A DNA stretch of 11,376 nt, from positions 1 through 11,376 of the forward strand of contig UQOC01000065.1 of NCBI GenBank assembly GCA_900542565.1, in the 5' to 3' direction. The position numbers and the translations under genes are program-made. Shown here piece by piece: positions 1 to 9,930 of the stretch. Position 1 is the first letter of the stretch, and each line of letters begins with the position of its first letter. The notes below the pieces were generated by a model that was not told the DNA's origin, ran no database searches, and saw only the letters and a list, made by a program, of their open reading frames with translations. The stretch is from an uncultured Eubacteriales bacterium (GTDB lineage: Bacteria > Bacillota > Clostridia > Peptostreptococcales > Anaerovoracaceae).

Positions 1-93
1 GGGCCTCCGCCAGCGAAAAGAGGGTCCTGCCAGTAGCCGGGGCCTCCGCCAGCGAAAAGAGGGTCCTGCCAGTAGCCGGGGCCTCCGCCAGCG
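1..93. repeat. 39-bp tandem repeat running off the left edge
   Basis: The run GGGCCTCCGCCAGCGA begins at 1, 40 and 79, so the period is exactly 39 bases, with about 2.4 near-perfect copies visible. The third copy stops matching at about 94-95, directly before the first GTTCTC box of the adjoining element. Each unit contains TCCGCCAGCGAAAAG, which closely resembles the end sequence of the 203-base elements described separately. Because 39 is divisible by 3, several frames are open: the minus strand reads a repeated GYWQDPLFAGGGP, and the plus strand reads repeated ASASEKRVLPVAG ending in a TAG at 96-98. Neither reading has a recognisable start or family, so a coding role is undecided. The repeat may be the edge of a longer array. 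Confidence 0.9.
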
Positions 94-97
94 ATTA

Positions 98-300
98 GTT
101 CTCTTTTTCGTTCCTTTAGCCCTCTCTGAGAACCTGAGCAGCCCATTGGAAGCCGCTTTGGTTCTCTATTCTTTTCATTCCCTCTTGAATGAGAACCATC
201 TATGCTTTTTCGGTTCTCTAAAGATGGTCCTTCTATGCCTTTGAGAACCTTTCTCCTTAAATAGGTTCTCGGCACACCCCTCTTCCCCTGATGTGAGAAC
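98..300 (-). repeat. Phased inverted-box element, copy A
   Basis: GTTCTC occurs at 98, 161, 213 and 265, and GAGAAC at 128, 191, 243 and 295. Every GTTCTC is followed 30 bases later (start to start) by GAGAAC. Units are separated by steps of 33, 22 and 22. Read on the minus strand the order becomes 22, 22, 33, the same as copy B on the plus strand, so the minus orientation is assigned. Outer arms are CTCCGCCAGCGATTA (83-97) and CTTTTACTGG (301-310). Neighbouring boxes extend to GAGAACC...GGTTCTC, which could form 7-8 bp hairpins with 14- or 25-base loops. No known family is recognised. The element lies just past the tuf terminator. An open minus-strand frame crosses it from about 388 to the left edge, but the 52-base unit period is not a multiple of three, so coding is unlikely to explain the pattern. 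Confidence 0.85.
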
Positions 301-356
301 CTTTTACTGGTCAAGCTGCTCCGGCTGCATTCTTCCCTCACTCCCCCACACTCACT

Positions 357-383
357 ACAAAAGGGACCGCTTTCTGCGGTCCC
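357..383 (-). terminator. Rho-independent terminator of tuf
   Basis: GGGACCGC (363-370) pairs perfectly with GCGGTCCC (376-383) around a 5-base loop. On the minus strand the stem is followed by TTTTGTAG. It begins 18 bases past the tuf stop codon, as expected for a strongly expressed single gene. Confidence 0.85.
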
Positions 384-400
384 CCTCGTCTTATCTCATA

Positions 401-1594
401 TTACTCGATGATCTCCGTTACTACTCCGGATCCTACTGTCCTTCCGCCTTCTCTGATGGCGAATCTCAGTCCTTCCTCTATAGCTATCGGTGTGATCAGG
501 TCGATCTCCATTGTGATGTTGTCTCCTGGCATGCACATCTCTACTCCCTCAGGCAGCTTCAGGTCTCCTGTTACATCGGTCGTCCTGAAGTAGAACTGCG
601 GTCTGTATCCGTTGAAGAACGGTGTGTGTCTTCCGCCTTCTTCTTTCTTCAGTACATATACCTCACCCTTGAACTTTGTGTGTGGGTGGATAGTTCCCGG
701 CTGGCACAGTACCTGTCCTCTCTCGATCTCGTTCCTCTGTACACCTCTGAGAAGTGCTCCGATGTTGTCTCCGGTCTCTGCTTTGTCCAGGAGCTTTCTG
801 AACATCTCTACTCCGGTTACTACTACCTTTCTCTTCTCGTCTGTAAGTCCTACGATCTCTACTTCGTTTCCGACTTCAAGTGTTCCTCTCTCTACTCTTC
901 CGGTCGCTACTGTTCCTCTTCCGGTGATGGAGAATACATCCTCTACCGGCATCAGGAACGGCTTGTCGTTATCTCTTTCCGGTTCCGGAATGTAGCTGTC
1001 TACTGCCTCGAACAGCTCTACTATCTTGTCTCCCCATGGGCCTGCAGGATCTTCAAGGGCCATGAGTGCGGATCCTCTGATGATCGGTGTGTCGTCTCCC
1101 GGGAATCCATATTCGTCAAGAAGTTCTCTTACTTCCATCTCTACCAGGTCCAGAAGCTCTTCGTCGTCTACCATGTCACACTTGTTCAGGAATACGATGA
1201 TATATGGTACTCCTACCTGTCTTGAAAGCAGGATGTGTTCTCTGGTCTGCGGCATAGGACCGTCTGTTGCTGCTACTACCAGGATTGCTCCGTCCATCTG
1301 GGCTGCTCCGGTGATCATGTTCTTTACATAGTCTGCGTGCCCCGGGCAGTCTACATGGGCATAGTGTCTGTTTGGTGTCTCATATTCTACATGGGCTGTA
1401 GATATGGTGATTCCTCTTTCTTTTTCTTCCGGTGCCTTGTCGATCTGGTCAAAGGCCACATCCTGGCCCAGTCCGTATCTCTGGTGCAGCACTGTTGTGA
1501 TGGCCGCTGTCAATGTGGTCTTGCCGTGGTCTACATGGCCTATGGTACCGATATTGATATGCGGTTTGGTTCTTTCAAACTTCTGTTTTGCCAT
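401..1594 (-). CDS. tuf: Elongation factor Tu
   Basis: EF-Tu is the GTPase that delivers aminoacyl-tRNA to the ribosomal A site in the cytoplasm. The 397-residue product is full length for the bacterial family. The GTPase domain shows the P-loop GHVDHGKT (19-26), switch I RGITI (60-64), DCPGH (82-86) and NKCD (137-140), followed by the usual domain 2 and 3 sequence ending VVTEIIE. The ATG is preceded by AGGAGG (1605-1610) ten bases upstream. The gene stands alone here: no fusA or rpsG precedes it, and it has its own promoter and terminator. It is therefore either a second tuf copy or a tuf that has left the str operon. There is no sign of damage or unusual composition. Confidence 0.98.
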
Positions 1595-1689
1595 TTCGTT
1601 TTTTCCTCCTGATTATATAACGTTATTTTTTGGAAGTATGGATTCGGGCGTCCCCAAATCCACTTGGGTTTTGCTCAAACCTATTGATT

Positions 1690-1719
1690 ATTGTAACATA
1701 GCTTGCCCTGTTTTGACAA
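1690..1719 (-). promoter_or_regulatory. tuf promoter, extended -10 type
   Basis: On the minus strand TTGTCA (1719-1714) is followed after 18 bases by TACAAT (1695-1690). A TG sits one base before the -10 hexamer, giving an extended -10. This predicts a transcript start near 1683 and an 89-base leader before the tuf ATG. The match to the vegetative consensus suits a highly expressed gene. Confidence 0.75.
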
Positions 1720-1870
1720 GGCATGTCTTGAGAAAAATGGCAATATTGTAGCATTTATATGATATCCTTACACTCCGCAGCCATCCCCTGTTTTGCAGCC
1801 GCCGGTCATGCATAGTATGGTAATGATCGGTCCTCCCGTAAAGTGGAATGCACCGGGCAACAGGGCACAC

Positions 1871-1943
1871 AATAAAACTGCCTCGTCCGCCAGAGGCTCA
1901 GCCCCATTATTGGGCGCGTAGGCCTTTGTCAGACGAGACAGTT
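1871..1943 (-). terminator. Long-stem terminator of the lipoprotein gene
   Basis: On the minus strand AACTGTCTCGTC (1943-1932) pairs with GACGAGGCAGTT (1887-1876) in 12 pairs, one of them a U-G wobble. It is followed directly by TTTATTGTG (1875-1867). The wobble is an A-C mismatch on the other strand, so minus-strand RNA is favoured. The 44 bases enclosed contain a smaller GCCC-AATAAT-GGGGC hairpin, so the structure is more branched than a simple terminator. Confidence 0.7.
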
Positions 1944-1948
1944 GGTTG

Positions 1949-1977
1949 CCGGACCAGACTGACTTTCATCTGGCCGG
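1949..1977. other. Intergenic hairpin after the lipoprotein gene
   Basis: CCGG (1949-1952) and CCAGA (1954-1958) pair with TCTGG (1969-1973) and CCGG (1974-1977), with one bulged A and a 10-base loop. There is no T-run on either side. It could stabilise the 3' end of the lipoprotein mRNA ahead of the terminator. Confidence 0.45.
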
Positions 1978-2025
1978 TGTGCTTTCATCAGGCAGGTGGC
2001 TCATTGCATGTGCAAAAACCATCTC

Positions 2026-2445
2026 TTATTTGAACTTAAGTTCTTTAAATTTGGCAGCCAGGTCCTCATCGTCGGTTATTATGACCATACCGTCGTTTAC
2101 TGCTGCGGCTTTGATCGTGCCGCTGCCCTCTTCGATGGCCTTGTATTCATCGGAATCTGCATCAAAACGGTAGATTTCTACAGTCCCATCATTGAACTGT
2201 TTTCCTTCAGCTGCGCCTATGGTGTCATACATGGTCTCAGTGCCGCCGGTGAGGCCGAGCTTTTCTGCTACAGAATCCACGGACATTTCAATCTTGTCCA
2301 TGTCATCCTTGACATCATCTTCCATTTCCTGTACGCCGTCTTCTATGTCGTCAGCAGCGTTTCCACCTGCATTGTCATCTGAGCCGCAGCCTGCAAGCCC
2401 AAGACACAACAGCAGAGACAAAATTATCATCAGTATCTTTTTCAT
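2026..2445 (-). CDS. Small acidic lipoprotein of unknown function
   Basis: The 139-residue product begins with a lipoprotein signal peptide: MKK, a hydrophobic stretch, then the lipobox LAGC with the lipidated Cys at 20. It should be anchored on the outer face of the cytoplasmic membrane. Residues 21 to about 65 are a low-complexity, strongly acidic linker (many D, E, N and G), probably flexible. The C-terminal part (about 70-139) looks like a compact domain, with YDTIGAAEGKQF followed by DGTVEIYRFDADSDEY and ending in IITDDEDLAAKFKELKFK. Small Clostridia lipoproteins of similar plan exist, but I cannot assign a function. The ATG follows an AGGAGG (2449-2454). The gene is monocistronic, with its own terminator, and nothing links it to the radical enzyme genes. 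Confidence 0.85.
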   Translation of the reverse strand: MKKILMIILSLLLCLGLAGCGSDDNAGGNAADDIEDGVQEMEDDVKDDMDKIEMSVDSVAEKLGLTGGTETMYDTIGAAEGKQFNDGTVEIYRFDADSDEYKAIEEGSGTIKAAAVNDGMVIITDDEDLAAKFKELKFK

Positions 2446-2473
2446 GTCATCCTCCTGATAAATGATCTTTTAT

Positions 2474-2501
2474 ATCTTATCATTTCCTGTTTTGGTGATA
2501 A
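2474..2501 (-). promoter_or_regulatory. Possible lipoprotein gene promoter
   Basis: TTATCA (2501-2496) and TAAGAT (2479-2474) are separated by 16 bases on the minus strand. The surrounding A/T-rich stretch fits a vegetative promoter, but the match is only fair and the alternative -10 TATAAA a few bases downstream has no good partner. Confidence 0.35.
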
Positions 2502-2656
2502 CATACATGGCGGCTGCGGCCTGACGGTGATCCGGCGCCGGCTGAACGCAAGACCCATCCAGGCTCATGCCTTTGATCTTTTAAGAGAATCCGTAACACA
2601 AGGTTTCTCCCATGAGTTTCAGCTCTGACGAAGGGAAAATTGACTAAATGTGCAGG

Positions 2657-2680
2657 GGCAGTGCTCACTGCCGAGGCAGT
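2657..2680. other. Alternating GGCAGT/ACTGCC switch-like repeat
   Basis: GGCAGT (2657-2662), ACTGCC (2667-2672) and GGCAGT (2675-2680) follow each other with 4- and 2-base gaps. The middle copy can pair with either neighbour but not both, with the first pairing having the more workable loop. It may be a weak terminator or processing hairpin upstream of the lipoprotein gene; no T-run supports termination. Confidence 0.5.
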
Positions 2681-2734
2681 TTCCAAAGAATATAGGGAAT
2701 TTTATCGTGCGGCATGGCTTTCCGCCAGCAAAAG

Positions 2735-2937
2735 GTTCTCTTTTTGCGTAAATATCAGGCTGAGGAGAAACTTTTGTTGCAGAACGGTTCTCAAAGCCAT
2801 GGAAAATCCGTCTGGTAAGAACCTGATGAACGAGGTCGGTTCTCCCCCGTGCGGATATTAAAAAACATGAGAACCCAAATGCCTTTTGACAGGCCATTTA
2901 GGTTCTCAAAAACGACTTCAGCATTAGAAACGAGAAC
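2735..2937 (+). repeat. Phased inverted-box element, copy B
   Basis: GTTCTC occurs at 2735, 2787, 2839 and 2902. GAGAAC or a one-base variant occurs at 2765 (GAGAAA), 2817 (AAGAAC), 2869 and 2932. Each pair is exactly 30 bases apart and units are separated by 22, 22 and 33, so total length equals copy A at 203 bases. The arms TCCGCCAGCAAAAG (2721-2734) and TTTTCACTGGCGGAG (2938-2952) form an imperfect terminal inverted repeat. Compared with copy A on the minus strand, the left arm matches as CCAG(T/C)AAAAG, and the right end GAGAACTTTTCACTGGCGGAG differs at 3 of 21 bases. The inner 24-mer of the second unit also aligns (14 of 24). The 39-base segment 2869-2907 can form a long hairpin. Function unknown. 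Confidence 0.85.
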
Positions 2938-2940
2938 TTT

Positions 2941-3015
2941 TCACTGGCGGAGCATATGATCCTCCAAAGTTGATCCTATATTGCGGCACAGTCCTGCTGG
3001 CGTGATTTTTTTCAT
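2941..3015 (-). CDS. Possible 24-residue small protein
   Basis: A short minus-strand ORF encodes MKKITPAGLCRNIGSTLEDH followed by MLRQ and a stop. Its ATG (3015-3013) is preceded at good spacing by GGAGGAG, as strong a ribosome binding site as the real genes here, which is the main reason to list it. It lies 113 bases past the end of GRE1, beyond a GC hairpin, so it might be read as the last cistron of the activase-GRE1 transcript. Its stop codon lies inside the right arm of repeat element B, so the element appears to supply the end of the frame. It has no membrane segment and no recognisable family. It could be a remnant of a longer gene cut by the element, or a chance frame. Confidence 0.35.
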   Translation of the reverse strand: MKKITPAGLCRNIGSTLEDHMLRQ

Positions 3016-3067
3016 TTGATCTCCTCCGGGGCATGCCATCAGGAAGGTTGGGCTGCATGACAGTTAA

Positions 3068-3090
3068 GGCCCGGCTGTCAAAGCCGGGCC
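3068..3090 (-). terminator. GC-rich hairpin after GRE1, possible terminator
   Basis: GGCCCGGC (3068-3075) pairs perfectly with GCCGGGCC (3083-3090) around a 7-base loop, 38 bases past the GRE1 stop. On the minus strand the stem is followed only by TTAACTGT, a poor T-run. It may terminate partially or protect the mRNA end. Confidence 0.5.
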
Positions 3091-3128
3091 AAGTGGAGCC
3101 GACCCTCAGACTGGGCAGCAGTTTCCCG

Positions 3129-5486
3129 TCAAAGGCCTTTCTGTATGGTCCTCTGGATGATGTTGTCCTGTATCTCTTTGCCCAGTTCCACAAAGTAAGC
3201 AGAATACCCGGCCACACGGACGATGATGTTCTTGTATTTGTCCGGTTCTTTCTGAGCAGCCAGCAGGGTCTCGTCATCCAGCACATTGATCTGGATGTGA
3301 TAGCCTCCCTGGGCAAAGTGGGCCCGAAAGACAGTCTCGATTATATCTATACCCTTTTCACCGGCGGCAATGGTCGGGTCAAACCTCTGGTTGAGCAGCA
3401 TGCCGCTCTGAGGCACCAGCTCGTCGCAGGCAGCAAGGGAATTGACAACAGCCGTCGGGCCGTTGACATCCATGCCGATCATCGGTGAAGCATTGTCAGC
3501 AAGGGCTGTAAACGCCAATCTTCCGTCAGGCATGGCGCCGACGGTCTTGCCCATGGCTACATTATATACTACTGTGGCATGGAGGCTGGTCCAAGGGCCG
3601 CCGTAAGCGTCCTTAAACCGCTTCATTGACCTGTCGATGGACTCGGTGAACCACTCTCCGTACTTGTCGGCCTGCTCGATGTTGTTGCCAAACTTAGGGG
3701 CCTTATTGATGAGGAGCTGTCTCATTTCTTCCTTGCCCTCAAAGTTGGTATCCATCAGGTCCAGCAGCTCACCCATGGTCAGATAGTGCTTGTTGAAAAC
3801 ACACTCTTCCATGGCGGCAAAAGAGTCGATTATGTTGGCTATGCTGGCGATGGAGATCGTCGTGTAATGGTGATCGGATCCTTTCTGCTGGAGCATCTTG
3901 CCTTTTTCTATGCAGCCGGCGGAAAAACACGAAGCCGTGATGGTCGGGAAAGTAAAGGCGTGGCCGGCGAAAGTGGTGTTGGCCATGTTGATGAATTTTT
4001 CCATAAAGAAGTCCTGCTGGGCTTCATAGGCTTTCATCACATCTTCGATGGACTTGAAGTCGCGCGGATCGCCGGTCTTGATACCCAGCTGCTTCTTGGT
4101 CACCGGGTCATAGCCGTTGTGGAGGGTGATCTCCAGTATCTTGTTCACATTGAAGTTGCCCGAATTGGTCTGAAAATCGGTGATACCGCATACCACCGGC
4201 TCGATACATCCGCAGATACCCCAGTTGCGGGCTTCTTTGAGGGTGAATCCAAGACTGAGCAGATATGTGATCGCCGACGAATCGTTGAAGAAAGCCGGAT
4301 GGCCTCCCGTATCTCTGGCAGCCCTGATGGCCAGCCTGAAAGTTTCCTCGTTCACATTGGGATGGAAACGGAAGGATATACACGGCTCGTCAGTCTGCAG
4401 GTCCAAAAGGCAACGGAGAAAGACATTGGTCAGCTCGTTGCATGCGTCTTTGCCGTTTTCTTTAACGCCGCCCAGCATTATGTGCATCCACAGCGGACAT
4501 CCGGGAACTGCGATGGATTCCTTGTACTGGCGGATGTTCCAAAGTTCGGCGACTTTGAGCTTGAACTCATGGATTATCTCAGCAAAATACTCTTCTGTCC
4601 TGCCTGCGGCGGTCTCTTTCTCAAAGAAAGGATACATATACTGGTCAAAGCGTCCCAGACAGTGGTCGCCGCCAACCGCCTCCAGTACGATGGCAAGATG
4701 GGTGAACCAAACCAGCTGAACAGCCTGCAGGAAAGTCTCAGGAGCGAATTCAGGCACCCTGCGGCAGTTTTCCGCCATGGTCAGAAGTTCCTCTTTCCTC
4801 TTTGGGTCGGTACATTCGGCCGCCTGTTTTTCTGCCAGGTCGGCGTAGCGGTGTGCAAAGCTGATTATGGCCTCCATGGCGATTATCATGGCCTCCCAGT
4901 TTATCCTCTGCTCCATATCGTAAACATCTTTACACACATGGTTGGCCAGCTTTTCCTTGCACTGATCGATATACCAACGGTAGCCCCGCTTTACCATGTT
5001 GTCGTAGTCCGGCGTATGGTTCATGGTGGACTGGTTGGATACGCCATGGGTGAACACCAGGGCGTCCAGCATATCTTTCACATCCGGGTCCTCAAGGTCG
5101 GCGGCAAAATCGCCGAAGGTGTGGCCGTGCCACTTTTCCACTATCTGACGGAGTTCTTCTTTTTCTTCCTCGTTGCGGAAATGGAGGTGATCGGAAACCC
5201 GCTTGTCTAGGGTGTCAAAATCGTCGTACAGCCACTTGGTCACATCCGGATGGAGAGGGACGGCCTGGATACGGTCTCCTGCGTGGCCGGCGATCTGAGA
5301 GTCCGGGTCAATGAAGATTTTCTTATTTTCGAGAAAATATTTAAAAGCTTTGGCCCTCCTCAGCACATAGTTTTCCATTGACGGCTGGCTGTAAAATTCC
5401 GTGATCAGCCGGGCCCGGTCCAGGTCTATGGTAGGCTCAGTGTTGCGGACTTTATCATTGAGCCTTATGATTCTTTCTGTAAGCAT
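3129..5486 (-). CDS. Glycyl radical enzyme GRE1 (pyruvate formate-lyase-like eliminase class)
   Basis: Glycyl radical enzymes use a stored backbone radical to make a cysteine thiyl radical that attacks the substrate; the eliminase branch breaks C-O, C-N or C-S bonds. The 785-residue length is normal for this branch. An N-terminal PFL-like barrel domain leads to NWGICGCIEPVVCG, which supplies the thiyl Cys427 and the Glu429 typical of diol dehydratases, choline lyase and hydroxyproline dehydratase. The C-terminal loop RVAGYSAYFVEL carries the radical Gly760, 25 residues from the end. The region where many relatives have a GH..PDY motif reads QSTMNHTPDY (about 154-163), so specificity probably differs. 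The ATG has GGAGG upstream, and the gene overlaps the activase by 22 bases, indicating translational coupling. The substrate is unknown: I cannot match it to PflB, CutC, HypD, IslA or glycerol dehydratase with confidence. Confidence 0.93.
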   Translation of the reverse strand: MLTERIIRLNDKVRNTEPTIDLDRARLITEFYSQPSMENYVLRRAKAFKYFLENKKIFIDPDSQIAGHAGDRIQAVPLHPDVTKWLYDDFDTLDKRVSDHLHFRNEEEKEELRQIVEKWHGHTFGDFAADLEDPDVKDMLDALVFTHGVSNQSTMNHTPDYDNMVKRGYRWYIDQCKEKLANHVCKDVYDMEQRINWEAMIIAMEAIISFAHRYADLAEKQAAECTDPKRKEELLTMAENCRRVPEFAPETFLQAVQLVWFTHLAIVLEAVGGDHCLGRFDQYMYPFFEKETAAGRTEEYFAEIIHEFKLKVAELWNIRQYKESIAVPGCPLWMHIMLGGVKENGKDACNELTNVFLRCLLDLQTDEPCISFRFHPNVNEETFRLAIRAARDTGGHPAFFNDSSAITYLLSLGFTLKEARNWGICGCIEPVVCGITDFQTNSGNFNVNKILEITLHNGYDPVTKKQLGIKTGDPRDFKSIEDVMKAYEAQQDFFMEKFINMANTTFAGHAFTFPTITASCFSAGCIEKGKMLQQKGSDHHYTTISIASIANIIDSFAAMEECVFNKHYLTMGELLDLMDTNFEGKEEMRQLLINKAPKFGNNIEQADKYGEWFTESIDRSMKRFKDAYGGPWTSLHATVVYNVAMGKTVGAMPDGRLAFTALADNASPMIGMDVNGPTAVVNSLAACDELVPQSGMLLNQRFDPTIAAGEKGIDIIETVFRAHFAQGGYHIQINVLDDETLLAAQKEPDKYKNIIVRVAGYSAYFVELGKEIQDNIIQRTIQKGL

Positions 5487-6406
5487 TTTATACCCTCCTT
5501 CTTGTTATCTTTCATATAGAAACTGTATTTTCCGTACTTATTTAAAATATCGTTGGCTATGCCAGTGAGTTCTTCCATCTGCTGGTCGGACGGCGGTTCT
5601 ACTCCCTGCAGCCCGTATGGCAGGCCCAGGGCGCCGTATTTGGACTGTCCGAAGTTATGATACCGGAGCAGTTCATATTCTTTTACCGTCGGCAGACCGG
5701 AGACGAAGCAGGCTATCCCCCTTATGTTTTCCGAGTCGTCCGTATATCCCGGCACCACCGGAGTCCTGATGGTCAGCGGCATGCCCAGATCCGATATTTT
5801 CTTTATGTTATCCAGTATCAGCTCATTGCCAGCCCCTGTGACCTGCTTATGCCTTTGGGGGTCGATGATCTTGATGTCCATGAACATGGAGTCTATATAT
5901 TCCAGCGCATCTTTGAAACTGTCGAAAGGTGCATAGCCGCAGCTTTCAACACAGACATTTATGCGGTTTTCCCTGCACTTTCTGGCTATCTCTTTAAGAT
6001 ATGCCCCATGGGTCAGAGGTTCTCCTCCGGAAAAAGTCACCCCTCCGCCTTTGATGTCGTAAAATATCTTGTCTTTGTTTATCTCTTTGAACAGCTCATC
6101 TATGGTGTAATCCCTGCCCACGGTTTTTTTGGCCTCGGCGTAGCATGTCTGGCTGCACCTCTGACACTCCCTGGGGCAAAGTGACCTGTCTATACGGCCA
6201 TCCGGCCCTATGGCTCCGTATGGGCAGCACCTGGCGCACAATCCGCAGCCAATACACTTGGACGGGTATTCCATTATCTGAATGCCGTAATCCTGAGATT
6301 CAGGATTGGCGCACCAGGGACATCTGAGCGGACAGCCTTTAAAGAAAACCAGCGTCCTGAGCCCGTGACCGTCATGTATTGAGCATTTCTGGATATTAAA
6401 GATCAT
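5465..6406 (-). CDS. Glycyl radical enzyme activase (radical SAM)
   Basis: This 313-residue protein should abstract the glycine hydrogen of the partner GRE using a 5'-deoxyadenosyl radical made from SAM. The radical SAM cluster motif is CPLRCPWC, with Cys25, Cys29 and Cys32, in the activase signature GCPLRCPWCANPES. A two-cluster ferredoxin-like insert follows: Cys51, 54, 57 and 61, then Cys77, 81, 84 and 88. This insert is typical of activases of non-PFL glycyl radical enzymes and absent from PflA itself. The SAM-binding GGE motif is at 127-129 within FSGGEPL. The ATG follows AAGGAGG at ideal spacing and lies about 20 bases past the predicted start from a sigma-54 promoter. It overlaps GRE1 by 22 bases, so GRE1 is its certain partner. 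It is the only activase in the window and may also activate GRE2. Confidence 0.95.
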   Translation of the reverse strand: MIFNIQKCSIHDGHGLRTLVFFKGCPLRCPWCANPESQDYGIQIMEYPSKCIGCGLCARCCPYGAIGPDGRIDRSLCPRECQRCSQTCYAEAKKTVGRDYTIDELFKEINKDKIFYDIKGGGVTFSGGEPLTHGAYLKEIARKCRENRINVCVESCGYAPFDSFKDALEYIDSMFMDIKIIDPQRHKQVTGAGNELILDNIKKISDLGMPLTIRTPVVPGYTDDSENIRGIACFVSGLPTVKEYELLRYHNFGQSKYGALGLPYGLQGVEPPSDQQMEELTGIANDILNKYGKYSFYMKDNKKEGIKCLQKES

Positions 6407-6434
6407 AGCTGCCTCCTTGTTTTTGCTTTTATAT

Positions 6435-6453
6435 AAAGCAATAACTGTGCCAG
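6435..6453 (-). promoter_or_regulatory. Sigma-54 promoter of the activase-GRE1 operon
   Basis: The minus strand reads CTGGCACAGTTATTGCTTT. This matches the -24/-12 consensus (TGGCACg-N4-TTGCw), including the obligatory GG-N10-GC spacing. It predicts transcription starting near 6426, leaving a leader of about 20 bases that just fits the AAGGAGG site before the activase ATG. Transcription would therefore need RpoN and an ATP-dependent enhancer-binding activator, neither encoded in this window. Confidence 0.75.
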
Positions 6454-6462
6454 TTTTTTATT

Positions 6463-6477
6463 CCGGCGGGCCGCCGG
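6463..6477. promoter_or_regulatory. GC palindrome next to the sigma-54 promoter
   Basis: CCGGCGG-G-CCGCCGG is a perfect 7+7 inverted repeat ten bases upstream of the -24 element. It is too tight for a normal RNA loop and lacks a T-run. It may be a protein-binding site, though activator sites usually lie further upstream. Confidence 0.4.
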
Positions 6478-6528
6478 TCCTTTCTGCTCCCGTCCGTTGG
6501 CATTGCTGGCTTTTGCGCGCCTTTTAAA

Positions 6529-6563
6529 CAGGGGCACAGCTTGCATATGCGGCCGTCCCCCTG
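6529..6563 (-). terminator. Hairpin after the dehydrogenase gene: terminator or activator site
   Basis: On the minus strand CAGGGG-G-ACGGC pairs with GCTGT-G-CCCCTG, with one G-G mismatch and one G-U pair, followed by TTTAAAA. This fits a terminator about 57 bases past the dehydrogenase stop. The same inverted repeat, with GCATATGC at its centre (6543-6550), lies about 120 bases upstream of the sigma-54 start, the usual distance for an enhancer-binding activator. The two readings are not exclusive. Confidence 0.45.
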
Positions 6564-6620
6564 AAAGTGTGTATTTTTTTATATGGCATTATCTTTTGAC
6601 GGGTAATTATTTATACAGTC

Positions 6621-7361
6621 TCACCCAAGATACATTCCGCCGTTGACATGCAGCACCTGGCCGGTGATATAACTGGCCTTTTGGGAAGCCAGGAATACTA
6701 TGGCGGCGGCTATTTCCTCCGGCTGGCCTATGTGGCCTACGGGCAGCTTTTCCAGATAACCTTCTCTGCCTGCGGCTATCCTTTCCATTGTCATCTCAGT
6801 CTGGGTAATGCCGGGGGCCACACAGTTGAGCCGCACGCCCTGCGGCCCCAGCTCTCTTGCCAGAGTACGGGTCAGCCCCACCACAGCCGCCTTGCATGCG
6901 CTGTAGTGGCTGTAACCGGGACAGCCATAAAAGGCGTCCTGGGATACCACATTAACTACGCTTCCCCCTGCATCGATGATGAACGGCATGGCGGCATGGA
7001 GAACATTATATACACCGTCAAGATCTATGGATACGGTCCTTCGCCACTGCTGCGGCGTCATTTCAGTAAAAAGCGCTTCTTCAAATATGGCTGCGCAGTT
7101 TACGGCTATATCTATGCCGCCGGCTGCTTCCGCCAGACTGCAGACTGCTTCATCGGTCTGCTCATAACTTGCTATATCGGCAGTCCGGATATATGCTTTG
7201 CCTCCGGCTGCTCCACCGGCCCCGGCCATTTCTTCCAGCGGCCCGGCAGTACGGCCCAGTCCGAGAATGACTGCGCCTTCTTTTGCCATCTCTATGGCTG
7301 TCTGCCGGCCTATGCCGCGGCCGGCCCCTGTTATCAGGACTTTTTTGTTTTCAAACAGCAT
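6621..7361 (-). CDS. Short-chain dehydrogenase/reductase (SDR family)
   Basis: This 246-residue protein is a classical SDR of the FabG-like type, expected to interconvert an alcohol and a carbonyl using a nicotinamide cofactor in the cytoplasm. The cofactor fold shows TGAGRGIG (11-18). Arg37 after the second strand suggests NADP(H) rather than NAD. The catalytic Ser140, Tyr153 and Lys157 are present, the last two in YSACK. NCAA (88-91) replaces the usual NNAG, and the tetrad Asn position (IDLDGVY) is Asp113. The C-terminus YITGQVLHVNGG is typical. The ATG follows AAAGGAGAG. It lies 144 bases behind GRE2 on the same strand with no terminator seen between, so it probably shares the transporter-GRE2 transcript and acts on the substrate or product of that pathway. 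The substrate is not predictable. Confidence 0.9.
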   Translation of the reverse strand: MLFENKKVLITGAGRGIGRQTAIEMAKEGAVILGLGRTAGPLEEMAGAGGAAGGKAYIRTADIASYEQTDEAVCSLAEAAGGIDIAVNCAAIFEEALFTEMTPQQWRRTVSIDLDGVYNVLHAAMPFIIDAGGSVVNVVSQDAFYGCPGYSHYSACKAAVVGLTRTLARELGPQGVRLNCVAPGITQTEMTMERIAAGREGYLEKLPVGHIGQPEEIAAAIVFLASQKASYITGQVLHVNGGMYLG

Positions 7362-7505
7362 TTTTCTCTCCTTTTCTCCGGTCCTGTCCGGATGTTCTTT
7401 CCCCGGCAGAGCGGCCGGCCGTTCCCCTCCGGTGCTGCTGTCCTGGTGCCTGTCTCTCCCGCATCCGCCGCTTCCGGCAGGGGCATGCTGCCGATGGCTG
7501 CGGGT

Positions 7506-9869
7506 TCAGACGCCCTTCTGTATGGTCCGCTCTATGATATTTTCCTGTATGCTTTCCTCCAGATCCACAAAGAAAGCCGAATATCCGGCCACCCGTACCA
7601 GCAGGTTCCTGTAGTTCTCCGGATGCTCCTGCGCATCACGGAGAGTCTCATTGTCAACAACATTTAGCTGTATATGCTCGCCCTCACTGCCGAAGTGCGC
7701 TCTCAGGACCGCTTCAAGTATGTCCACGCCCTTTTCACCTCTAACTATATGAGGATCGAACCTCTGGTTCAGCAGATAGCCGCCCTGAGCGTTGCGCCGT
7801 CCTCCGGAATTTACCGACTTGACCACAGCGGTCGGGCCGTTGACATCCATGCCTATCATAGGAGAAGCGTTATCCGCCACCGGAGTAAAAGCTTTACGGC
7901 CGTCAGGCAAGGCTCCTATCATCCGGCCCAGCACCACATTGTAAGACTGGGTGGCGAACACGATGTCAAACTCTCCGCCCCTGGCGTCTGTGTACTTCTT
8001 GGCTTCCCTGTTGATGGAAGAGGCCACAAATTCCGTATATTTATCAACCTGCTCTATGTCGTTGCCGTATTTTGGCGCCCGGTTTATCAGGAGCTGCCTC
8101 ATTTCTTCCCGGCCCTCAAAGTTTGTGGCCAGCAGATCCATAAGCTGGGCCATGGTCAGGTATTTCTTATTAAATACGCATTCTTCTATGGCTGCCAGGG
8201 AATCCACCAGATTGGCCAGTCCCGTCACGCCGAAAGCTCCCCACCGGTGCGGGCAGCCTGCCTGCTGCATTACCCTGCCGTTTTCGATACAGCCCTCCAC
8301 AAAGCATGAGCCGGTGATGGTCGGGCAGGCGTAGGCATGGCATGAAACGACCTTGTCGAACATCTTGACGAACATCCTGACGAAATATTCCTGCTGGATG
8401 AGATAGGCTTCCTTGATCTGCTCAAGGGAAGCAAAATCTCTGCCTTCCCCCGTATGAGGCCCTATCTGCTTGCCTGTCACCGGATCCCGGCCATCGTTGA
8501 GCGCCAGTTCGAAAACTTTTAATGTATTGAAAAATCCTGTATTGGACTGATAGTCCGACTTGCCTGCCACGATGGCTTCAGTGCATCCTACAAGGCTGTA
8601 ATCCCTTGCCTCTTCCAGAGAGAATCCCAGCTCCTGGAGGCTGAGGATGTTGGCGCCGTCGTTGAAGAACGCCGGATGGCTGTCGCCGTTGAGGGCAACC
8701 TTCATGGCAAGGCGGAAAGTCTCCTCGTCTACATTTTCGTGGTAGCGGAAAGATATGCAGGGCTCCTTGGTCTGGAGTTCCTCCATTCCCTTTAGGATAA
8801 ACCTTGTCAGTTCATTACATGCGTCTGTTCCGTCAGGCTTTACTCCTCCCAGCACTATGTGCATGTACAGAGCGCAGCCGGGATAGGCCTCCGCTTCTCC
8901 TGCGCTTCTGAGATACCACATTTCCTCGAACCTGATCTTGAACTCGTGTAGCAGATCCATGAGATATTCTTCTGACTGTCCCTCTTCCATGGCTTTTTTG
9001 TAGAAAGGATACAGGTACTGGTCGAGCCTGCCTATGGGGTGATGATAACCGTTGTTTTCTATCATTATGGCGCAGTGGGTGATGAGCACCATCTGCAATA
9101 CCTGCTGGAATGTTTCCGGAGGGTTTTCCGGTACCAGCCGGCAGTTTTCTGCCATGGTCAGCAGCTGTCTCCTGCGCTTTTCATCCTTGCACTCTGACGC
9201 CATTTTTTCCGCCAGATCCGCATACCTGTGGGAAAAGTCTATGATGGCTTCCATGACTGTTATCATGGCCTGCCATGTGTACTTCTGGTTCATCTTTTCG
9301 ATGGTCATTTCTTCTTTTTCCAGCTCATCCAGATTTTGTCGGCACTGATCGATGTAATGGCGATAGCCGACTTTGACCATCTCAGGATAGTCTGGGTTCA
9401 TGCACATGGTGGACTGTTTAGCCACTCCTTTGGTCATGACTCCCACTTCTATGGCCTCCAGCTCTTCCTCCGTGTACTGTACGGCTGTCAGGTCCTCAAA
9501 GGTACGGCCTTCCCACTCCTTTAAGATTGCCGCCAGTTCTTCCTTTTCTTCCGGAGATACGAACTGGAAGGTATCGAACTTGCGAGTGTCCAGAATGTCG
9601 TATTCATCTCTGAGCCAGCCGGACATTTCCGGAAAGATGTTGACCGCCCGCAGCCTGGACGCGGTATGCCCTGCCAGCAGCCAGTCATCGTCTATGAAGA
9701 TCTTCTTGTTTTCCAGCACATATTTAAAAAGGTTTGCCCTGCTTATCAGGAGAGGCTCCATGGACGGTTTCCTGCAATATTCCGTCACCAGCCGCGCCCG
9801 GTCAAGGCAGACCGTTGGAGTCGTATCTCTGGCCTTGTCGACCAGCCTTGCGATTCTTTCCGATAACAT
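7506..9869 (-). CDS. Glycyl radical enzyme GRE2 (pyruvate formate-lyase-like eliminase class)
   Basis: This 787-residue enzyme is a diverged relative of GRE1: 46 of the first 76 residues agree by hand count without gaps, and both end IQKG(L/V). Its active-site loop is YSLVGCTEAIVAG, giving thiyl Cys429 and Glu431, with Thr between them and Ala after, where GRE1 has Ile and Pro. The radical loop RVAGYSAFFVDL has Gly762, again 25 residues from the end. The start is placed at the ATG of MLSERIARLVDK, aligned with GRE1's MLTERI and preceded by AAGGAGG. An in-frame GTG 18 codons upstream lies in a hairpin and is rejected. It follows the transporter and its small partner by 78 bases, linking it to the imported solute. 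No activase lies beside it in the visible operon. Function as a lyase or dehydratase is inferred; the substrate is unknown. Confidence 0.93.
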   Translation of the reverse strand: MLSERIARLVDKARDTTPTVCLDRARLVTEYCRKPSMEPLLISRANLFKYVLENKKIFIDDDWLLAGHTASRLRAVNIFPEMSGWLRDEYDILDTRKFDTFQFVSPEEKEELAAILKEWEGRTFEDLTAVQYTEEELEAIEVGVMTKGVAKQSTMCMNPDYPEMVKVGYRHYIDQCRQNLDELEKEEMTIEKMNQKYTWQAMITVMEAIIDFSHRYADLAEKMASECKDEKRRRQLLTMAENCRLVPENPPETFQQVLQMVLITHCAIMIENNGYHHPIGRLDQYLYPFYKKAMEEGQSEEYLMDLLHEFKIRFEEMWYLRSAGEAEAYPGCALYMHIVLGGVKPDGTDACNELTRFILKGMEELQTKEPCISFRYHENVDEETFRLAMKVALNGDSHPAFFNDGANILSLQELGFSLEEARDYSLVGCTEAIVAGKSDYQSNTGFFNTLKVFELALNDGRDPVTGKQIGPHTGEGRDFASLEQIKEAYLIQQEYFVRMFVKMFDKVVSCHAYACPTITGSCFVEGCIENGRVMQQAGCPHRWGAFGVTGLANLVDSLAAIEECVFNKKYLTMAQLMDLLATNFEGREEMRQLLINRAPKYGNDIEQVDKYTEFVASSINREAKKYTDARGGEFDIVFATQSYNVVLGRMIGALPDGRKAFTPVADNASPMIGMDVNGPTAVVKSVNSGGRRNAQGGYLLNQRFDPHIVRGEKGVDILEAVLRAHFGSEGEHIQLNVVDNETLRDAQEHPENYRNLLVRVAGYSAFFVDLEESIQENIIERTIQKGV

Positions 9870-9897
9870 TCTCTGGTCCTCCTTTCTTGCACAATGA

Positions 9898-9930
9898 GAC
9901 TGCCTGAAACTCCATGGTTTCACGGCAGTC
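9898..9930 (-). other. Strong hairpin between transporter subunit gene and GRE2
   Basis: On the minus strand GACTGCC-G-TGAAAC pairs with GTTTCA-GGCAGTC: 13 pairs, one bulged G and a 6-base loop CATGGA. It sits just upstream of the GRE2 ribosome binding site and has no T-run. It could be an mRNA processing or stabilising element that sets different levels of transporter and enzyme, or an attenuator. Confidence 0.6.

Follow-up and report, generated by a model that had tools for sequence, protein, structure and literature searches.

Miniature inverted-repeat transposable elements (MITEs) of bacteria are described as short intergenic elements bounded by terminal inverted repeats, whose transcripts fold, and some of which carry sites for DNA-binding proteins such as IHF (PMC10969869, PMC2229807). 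In the overviews given there, intergenic repeats are mostly single stem-loops. One survey sorted stem-loop repeats from 40 genomes into 92 families, 67 of them previously undescribed (PMC2267715). The element analyzed here resides in a stretch of 11,376 nucleotides (hereafter, the window) from an uncultured Eubacteriales bacterium (contig UQOC01000065.1, assembly GCA_900542565.1). It is an array of short inverted boxes, GTTCTC and GAGAAC, and represents a real, selected and unclassified array element, found in two diverged copies, A and B, one of which is flanked by a variable minisatellite. Both copies are intergenic. Tentatively, the element is best read as a multi-site protein-binding DNA array carried on a MITE-like repeat.

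Geometry and homology of the two arrays

Four units of the form GTTCTC-N24-GAGAAC make up each array:

98-133, 161-196, 213-248, 265-300 (98..300), minus strand (the strand of tuf): array A, four units, step order 22, 22, 33
2735-2770, 2787-2822, 2839-2874, 2902-2937 (2735..2937), plus strand: array B, four units, step order 22, 22, 33

On recomputation, coordinates and geometry of both arrays matched exactly those reported in an initial annotation of this DNA. All the units of copy A are exact. Four units are present also in copy B, as had been claimed, but only two are exact; the first two carry one box mismatch each (GAGAAA at 2765-2770, AAGAAC at 2817-2822). Box starts on the minus strand of A and the plus strand of B coincide, at 0, 30, 52, 82, 104, 134, 167 and 197. 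The repeated sequence measures 7 bases (GGTTCTC or GAGAACC) in 14 of the 16 boxes, the two mismatched boxes being allowed for. The N24 interior has one length in 8/8 units, while the inter-unit gaps take two values, 16 and 27; for this reason the 36–38 bp palindrome is viewed as the natural unit. Unit pitch is 52, 52 and 63 bp, and the resulting offsets (52, 104 and 167 bp) correspond to 4.95, 9.90 and 15.90 turns at 10.5 bp per turn.

Such box spacing is far above chance. GTTCTC-N24-GAGAAC was found, with up to 2 mismatches, at 9 sites in the window, 8 of which lie inside the two arrays. Dinucleotide shuffles of the window contained 0.41 matches on average and 3 at most, and the number of 9 was reached in none of 200. 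Exact units number 6, whereas 300 Markov shuffles contained 0.003 on average and never more than 1.

Set in the 22, 22, 33 order, the copies align without gaps, as do the 232-base stretches of both copies when aligned by MAFFT. Bases outside the boxes are identical at 76 of 155 positions (null mean 40.6; not reached in 5000 permutations). Because of the gap-free alignment and this degree of identity, A and B are regarded as homologues, copies of a single diverged element in which about half of the interior has changed. The longest well-kept stretch outside the boxes is GGTTCTCAAAGSCATRGAA, in the second unit. It had been proposed that geometry is conserved and sequence is not; the geometry is indeed the same, but the copies remain recognizably homologous outside the boxes. 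Box bases are identical at 46 of 48 positions, and the chance of such conservation, had the boxes changed at the non-box rate, is ~2e-12. As the boxes are kept, 79/155 other positions differ and no indel separates the copies, selection on both box sequence and spacing is supported by the comparison, the latter in line with what had been suggested.

Element ends, relatives of copy A and searches for further copies

The arrays had been described as elements of exactly 203 bases. This is too short, as imperfect terminal inverted repeats (CCGCCAG...CTGGCGG) extend both ends by ~13 bases:

2721..2744: array B, left terminal inverted repeat, 83% complementary to 2928-2951
2928..2951: array B, right terminal inverted repeat, 83% complementary to 2721-2744
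84..103: array A, terminal repeat beside the outermost box (TCCGCCAGCGATTA + box), imperfect pairing with 295-310
295..310: array A, other terminal repeat (GAGAACCTTTTACTGG), 94% complementary to 2725-2740 of copy B

The repeats are clear in copy B, where arms of 24 nt each lie 183 nt apart, and degraded in copy A. Since the ends are common to both copies, the element can be described as a unit of ~230 bp with imperfect terminal inverted repeats. This feature brings it near the MITE-type intergenic repeats, a kind missing from the initial annotation.

At the window edge, copy A is adjoined by a minisatellite:

1..94: 39-bp tandem repeat, 2.4 perfect copies, unit carrying CTTTTCGCTGGCGGAG on the minus strand

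The tandem adjoins box 8, and the window starts inside it. In each full unit, CTTTTCGCTGGCGGAG resembles the end of the element. Relatives were sought at the protein level. The stop-free minus frame 3-395 served solely as a query, on the supposition that gene finders may have called it in other assemblies. The query matched 50 of 79 candidates at E ≤10 (weakest E 0.98) in assemblies from ENA or Logan. A second query, made from the tandem, gave 30 among the matches listed, 14 of which were new, for 64 open reading frames (ORFs) in all. These are only what gene finders called, and form a non-random sample of the relatives. A coding reading of array A was rejected. In the window, the tandem has no stop codon in any of the three minus frames, and ORFs of other assemblies cross it in different frames; the 64 ORFs are accordingly taken as mispredicted non-coding DNA.

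The translated end of the array was found in 64/64 ORFs. All eight boxes are read through in 30, part of them in the remainder. Placed ungapped on the copy A frames, the ORFs differ from it by 1 to 9 residues each, and the relatives carrying copy A would be strains. In these relatives the array is kept. Box 6 reads GAGGAC in 47 ORFs, GAGAAC in 15, and is unreadable in 2. In two ORFs out of 64 (P0047 and P0054) the frame changes in the A-run beside box 8, as judged by eye; sequencing errors could account for this. Spacing had been held unchanged by a single base. This is true of the two copies, which are separated by no indel, but the apparent one-base length change in 2/64 ORFs suggests that spacing is not wholly invariant. 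Box 6 and the two frame changes aside, no missense change falls inside the boxes under the smallest-change reading, and ~18 sites outside vary. One of ~19 missense-variable sites lies in a box (P ~0.04; the site list was read by hand, and synonymous changes are invisible).

The stretch from the array to the downstream sequence varies among the 64 ORFs mostly by 13 residues, that is in 39-bp steps. Its length ranges from 17 to 76 residues ahead of one tail (29 ORFs), and from 38 to 103 ahead of the other (30 ORFs). Five ORFs have neither tail, and one of them (P0041) lacks the tandem unit, as seen by eye.

Further copies were searched in several collections. In GTDB representative genomes an exact three-box pattern gave 3 matches (Spirochaetaceae, Microcoleus, Acidobacteriaceae), with no second unit carrying up to one mismatch nearby. 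As ~7 matches are expected in 257 Gb at uniform composition, by rough reckoning, the three are taken as chance occurrences. The scan used one strict pattern; a single change in the three boxes would be missed, and diverged relatives are possible. Five box or end-motif patterns gave 0, 3, 26, 0 and 4 matches in IMG/VR viral contigs, and the tandem pattern gave 6; none of these marks a further array. The viral contigs hold 32 loci with tuf relatives, and no glycyl radical enzyme was found in them. Across 74 loci, a single pair of units lies within 130 bp at up to one mismatch per unit (L009, pitch 54, no more units), and is taken as chance. A scan of 64 loci and the window for any 6-mer inverted pair repeated with one gap length at least 3 times within 300 bp retrieved copy A alone; such a scan misses copy B, which has two exact units, and arrays with changed boxes. 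PLSDB plasmids and phage records gave short matches only, at E 3 or worse. In Rfam 15 the single match, in array B, was weak (E 0.22; 24.8 bits, where the gathering score is 48.5). Literature searches on the boxes, on repeats of gut Clostridiales and on the tandem sequence returned nothing relevant (for the boxes, one unrelated wheat paper), and for tuf and tandem repeats nothing relevant was found among the matches listed. The statement that the arrays match no known element family is borne out as far as tested, with no Rfam family at the gathering score and nothing relevant from the literature searches.

Readings of the element

A protein-binding array or a structured RNA had been suggested. 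Both readings survive, but a MITE-type repeat had not been considered. We lean, at somewhat less than even confidence, towards a DNA array of several protein-binding sites, carried by a MITE-like element. Each GGTTCTC-N24-GAGAACC unit would be a putative site for a dimeric DNA-binding protein. With a pitch of 52, 52 and 63 bp (~5, 5 and 6 turns), the four sites would lie near one helix face, and a multimer spanning them could shape a compact nucleoprotein complex. Examples would be a synapse formed by a transposase or recombinase on a MITE-like element, and a regulatory or nucleoid site that has become domesticated. We infer the binding protein, its binding and any mobility. Boxes conserved beyond their background and set at fixed spacing, as in an array of protein sites, are found in the two copies (46/48 against 76/155 identical bases, no indel).

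Several observations weigh against an array of protein sites. The commonest form of box 6 among the ORFs is GAGGAC (47/62 readable), which is hard to reconcile with a strict protein site. The case for helical phasing draws on two spacing values, and chance could account for it (1 in 25, by rough reckoning). The 27-nt gap is self-complementary, with compensatory changes, and this is left unexplained by DNA binding. No transposase or recombinase was found among the seven window ORFs scanned, and no further array in IMG/VR, PLSDB, phage records or, with one strict pattern, GTDB representatives. No target-site duplication was seen by eye in the flanks of either copy, the tandem repeat bordering copy A at one end. 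Direct repeats of MITEs are described as waning over time (PMC10969869).

The element may instead be a structured RNA, or a single-stranded DNA element, lying in a 3'-untranslated region or standing alone, and perhaps bound by a protein recognizing helices made of boxes. This is a close rival, at slightly lower confidence. On the strand given by A-minus and B-plus, a closing stem P1 (boxes 1 and 8 with the terminal repeats, 16 positions) would enclose three hairpins, P2, P3 and P4 (boxes 2-3, 4-5 and 6-7), with four linkers of 24 nt. Hairpin P4 is located as follows:

128..166, minus strand: hairpin P4 of copy A, boxes 6 and 7 and the internally complementary 27-nt gap
2869..2907, plus strand: hairpin P4 of copy B, same register, other bases

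In A as well as in B, the pairing of P4 extends beyond the boxes and keeps one register, and two whole pairs show compensatory changes. Counting Watson-Crick and G-U pairs, 7 of 10 inner positions are jointly paired on the A-minus/B-plus strand, a number that 5 of 100000 shuffles attain; as the examination covered seven gaps and two strands, a factor of 14 applies to this figure. On the other strand joint pairs are 5/10 (reached by 1197 of 100000). With Watson-Crick pairs alone the strands do not differ, both showing 4/10 (373 and 380 of 100000). In the other six gaps joint pairing is not beyond chance. A third double change, outside P4, is present in the structure that RNAalifold itself derives. 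In a control for compensatory changes, 238 of 500 shuffles reach the observed values, as expected with two sequences only.

All four strands fold more stably than shuffled sequence, and the A-minus/B-plus strand has the better z-score each time (copy A, -4.46 against -3.64; copy B, -5.63 against -5.17); much of this must come from the inverted boxes themselves, which inflate the values. Paired cells amount to 91%, against 30–52% when partners are slid; the structure derives from the same sequences, which alone raises the figure. G-U exceeds A-C on this strand by 12 to 6, a weak lean. The box 6 variant and a C-to-T change at one P4 position (2/46 ORFs, smallest-change reading) both retain a G-U pair. 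Assignment to a single RNA strand from the energies of P4 was dropped, as copy A prefers the A-minus/B-plus strand (-21.1 against -17.0) and copy B the other (-22.5 against -16.8).

Stems P1, P2 and P3, made mainly by boxes, show no compensatory change, hence the sequence of the boxes seems to count, in addition to their pairing. All the helices contain near-identical boxes, which is more than pairing demands. Other points do not favour an RNA: copy B in this orientation is antisense to the neighbouring genes, promoter-like sites in 1-3300 are near chance (5, against 3.7 expected), and no Rfam family is reached at its gathering score. A DNA protein reading the boxes is therefore held slightly likelier than a structured RNA, and both could hold for one element.

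Joining the two, the element could be a new type of cis-element. Its eight boxes would serve both as protein-recognition sites and as exchangeable stems, arranged in four palindromic units with a fixed 24-base interior near one helix face, and able to adopt a closed four-stem fold; array and end-motif minisatellite would make one system, fast-changing between strains behind tuf. This broader proposal is doubtful. Eight boxes and all spacings were kept while about half of the rest changed, which suggests a demanding reader, be it a protein or a fold. Should binding or a defined RNA prove true, the element would be of a new multi-site type and could account for a spot, behind an essential gene, that varies between strains.

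An inert MITE-like relic is improbable. Here the boxes would be old sub-terminal transposase sites, and the 39-bp minisatellite would have grown from the end of the element by slippage. Terminal inverted repeats, intergenic location and a size near that of described bacterial MITEs (PMC10969869, PMC2229807) fit this picture, as do the end motif contained in the tandem unit and the length variation mostly in 39-bp steps. A relic, however, should lose its spacing, yet boxes are kept and no indel separates the copies, although changes have reached about half of the positions outside the boxes. Very improbable is that the arrays mark the recombination or transposition ends of a larger mobile or invertible segment (~2.87 kb, tuf included). 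In favour, A and B face in opposite directions and each has its 33-bp step on the outer side. Against this, their orientation would arise by chance in 1 of 2 cases, the ends have diverged strongly, tuf together with a lipoprotein gene would make improbable cargo, and the seven ORFs scanned include no recombinase.

Genomic setting and comparison with known systems

The two copies, contained in an 11-kb window, flank two genes of the minus strand:

401..1594, minus strand: tuf (elongation factor Tu), followed downstream of the 3' end by array A
2026..2445, minus strand: small acidic lipoprotein-like ORF between the arrays; five relatives at E ≤0.001, none named

EF-Tu and the ribosome-binding site would fit a clostridial Bacillota as host. 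Array A is located beyond a terminator-like hairpin near 360-384, which was seen by eye and is absent from the computed list. Array B resides in the 683-bp gap between the lipoprotein-like ORF and the first glycyl radical enzyme. The arrays are crossed by several small ORFs, which are taken as chance. A short direct repeat, CTTTCATCNGGCNGGTG (1963-1998, two copies 19 bp apart), is found in the gap between tuf and the lipoprotein-like ORF. The next genes along the window form a minus-strand cluster, which encodes two glycyl radical enzymes, an activase, a short-chain dehydrogenase/reductase (SDR) protein and a sodium-dependent transporter. The two glycyl radical enzymes (3129-5486 and 7506-9923) are paralogous; the activase lies at 5465-6406, and the SDR protein in the same stretch (3129-9923). 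Neither glycyl radical enzyme reaches an NCBIfam equivalog cut-off, and the activase reaches a subfamily cut-off only. The transporter (NF037979, 10076-11320) adjoins the cluster, and is possibly the importer of its substrate.

CRISPR arrays likewise contain 36-bp units at regular distances. Here only the 6–7 bp ends of the units repeat, interiors differ and the pitch is 52 or 63. A CRISPR array was rejected on these grounds, in agreement with the initial annotation; the seven ORFs scanned include no cas gene. The ends of Tn7 and the res sites of the Tn3 family consist of several protein sites set at fixed spacing on one stretch of DNA. The arrays share this multi-site plan, and differ in that no transposase or recombinase gene accompanies them among the ORFs scanned. 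We know of no Tn7- or Tn3-type array made by four inverted-pair units of equal N24.

Comparable are the multi-arm repeats described in PMC2229807, which also have more than one arm, a linker and a conserved motif. As described there, they feature two arms and a GANTC methylation motif, in contrast to the four units and GTTCTC/GAGAAC boxes found here; the comparison is one of descriptions. Comparable too are MITEs and other small mobile repeats (Correia/NEMIS, RUP, ERIC, RPE, QMITE2), likewise reported as short, non-coding and intergenic, with terminal inverted repeats and transcripts that could fold as stem-loops (PMC10969869, PMC2229807). In these accounts most feature one end-closed stem-loop, are AT-rich, and often have TA ends and target duplications. 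The element under study differs by its eight boxes, four phased palindromic units, GC-rich ends, absence of a visible duplication and two strongly diverged copies. Sequences were compared with those of MITE families through Rfam, and otherwise the element is set apart by descriptions. It is short, non-coding and bounded by terminal inverted repeats (24-nt arms, 83% complementary, in copy B; degenerate in copy A). It is not filed as a MITE because target duplication, copy number and an autonomous partner are not established. By its ends and location it fits the broad MITE kind, and departs from it in replacing the usual single stem-loop with a different plan.

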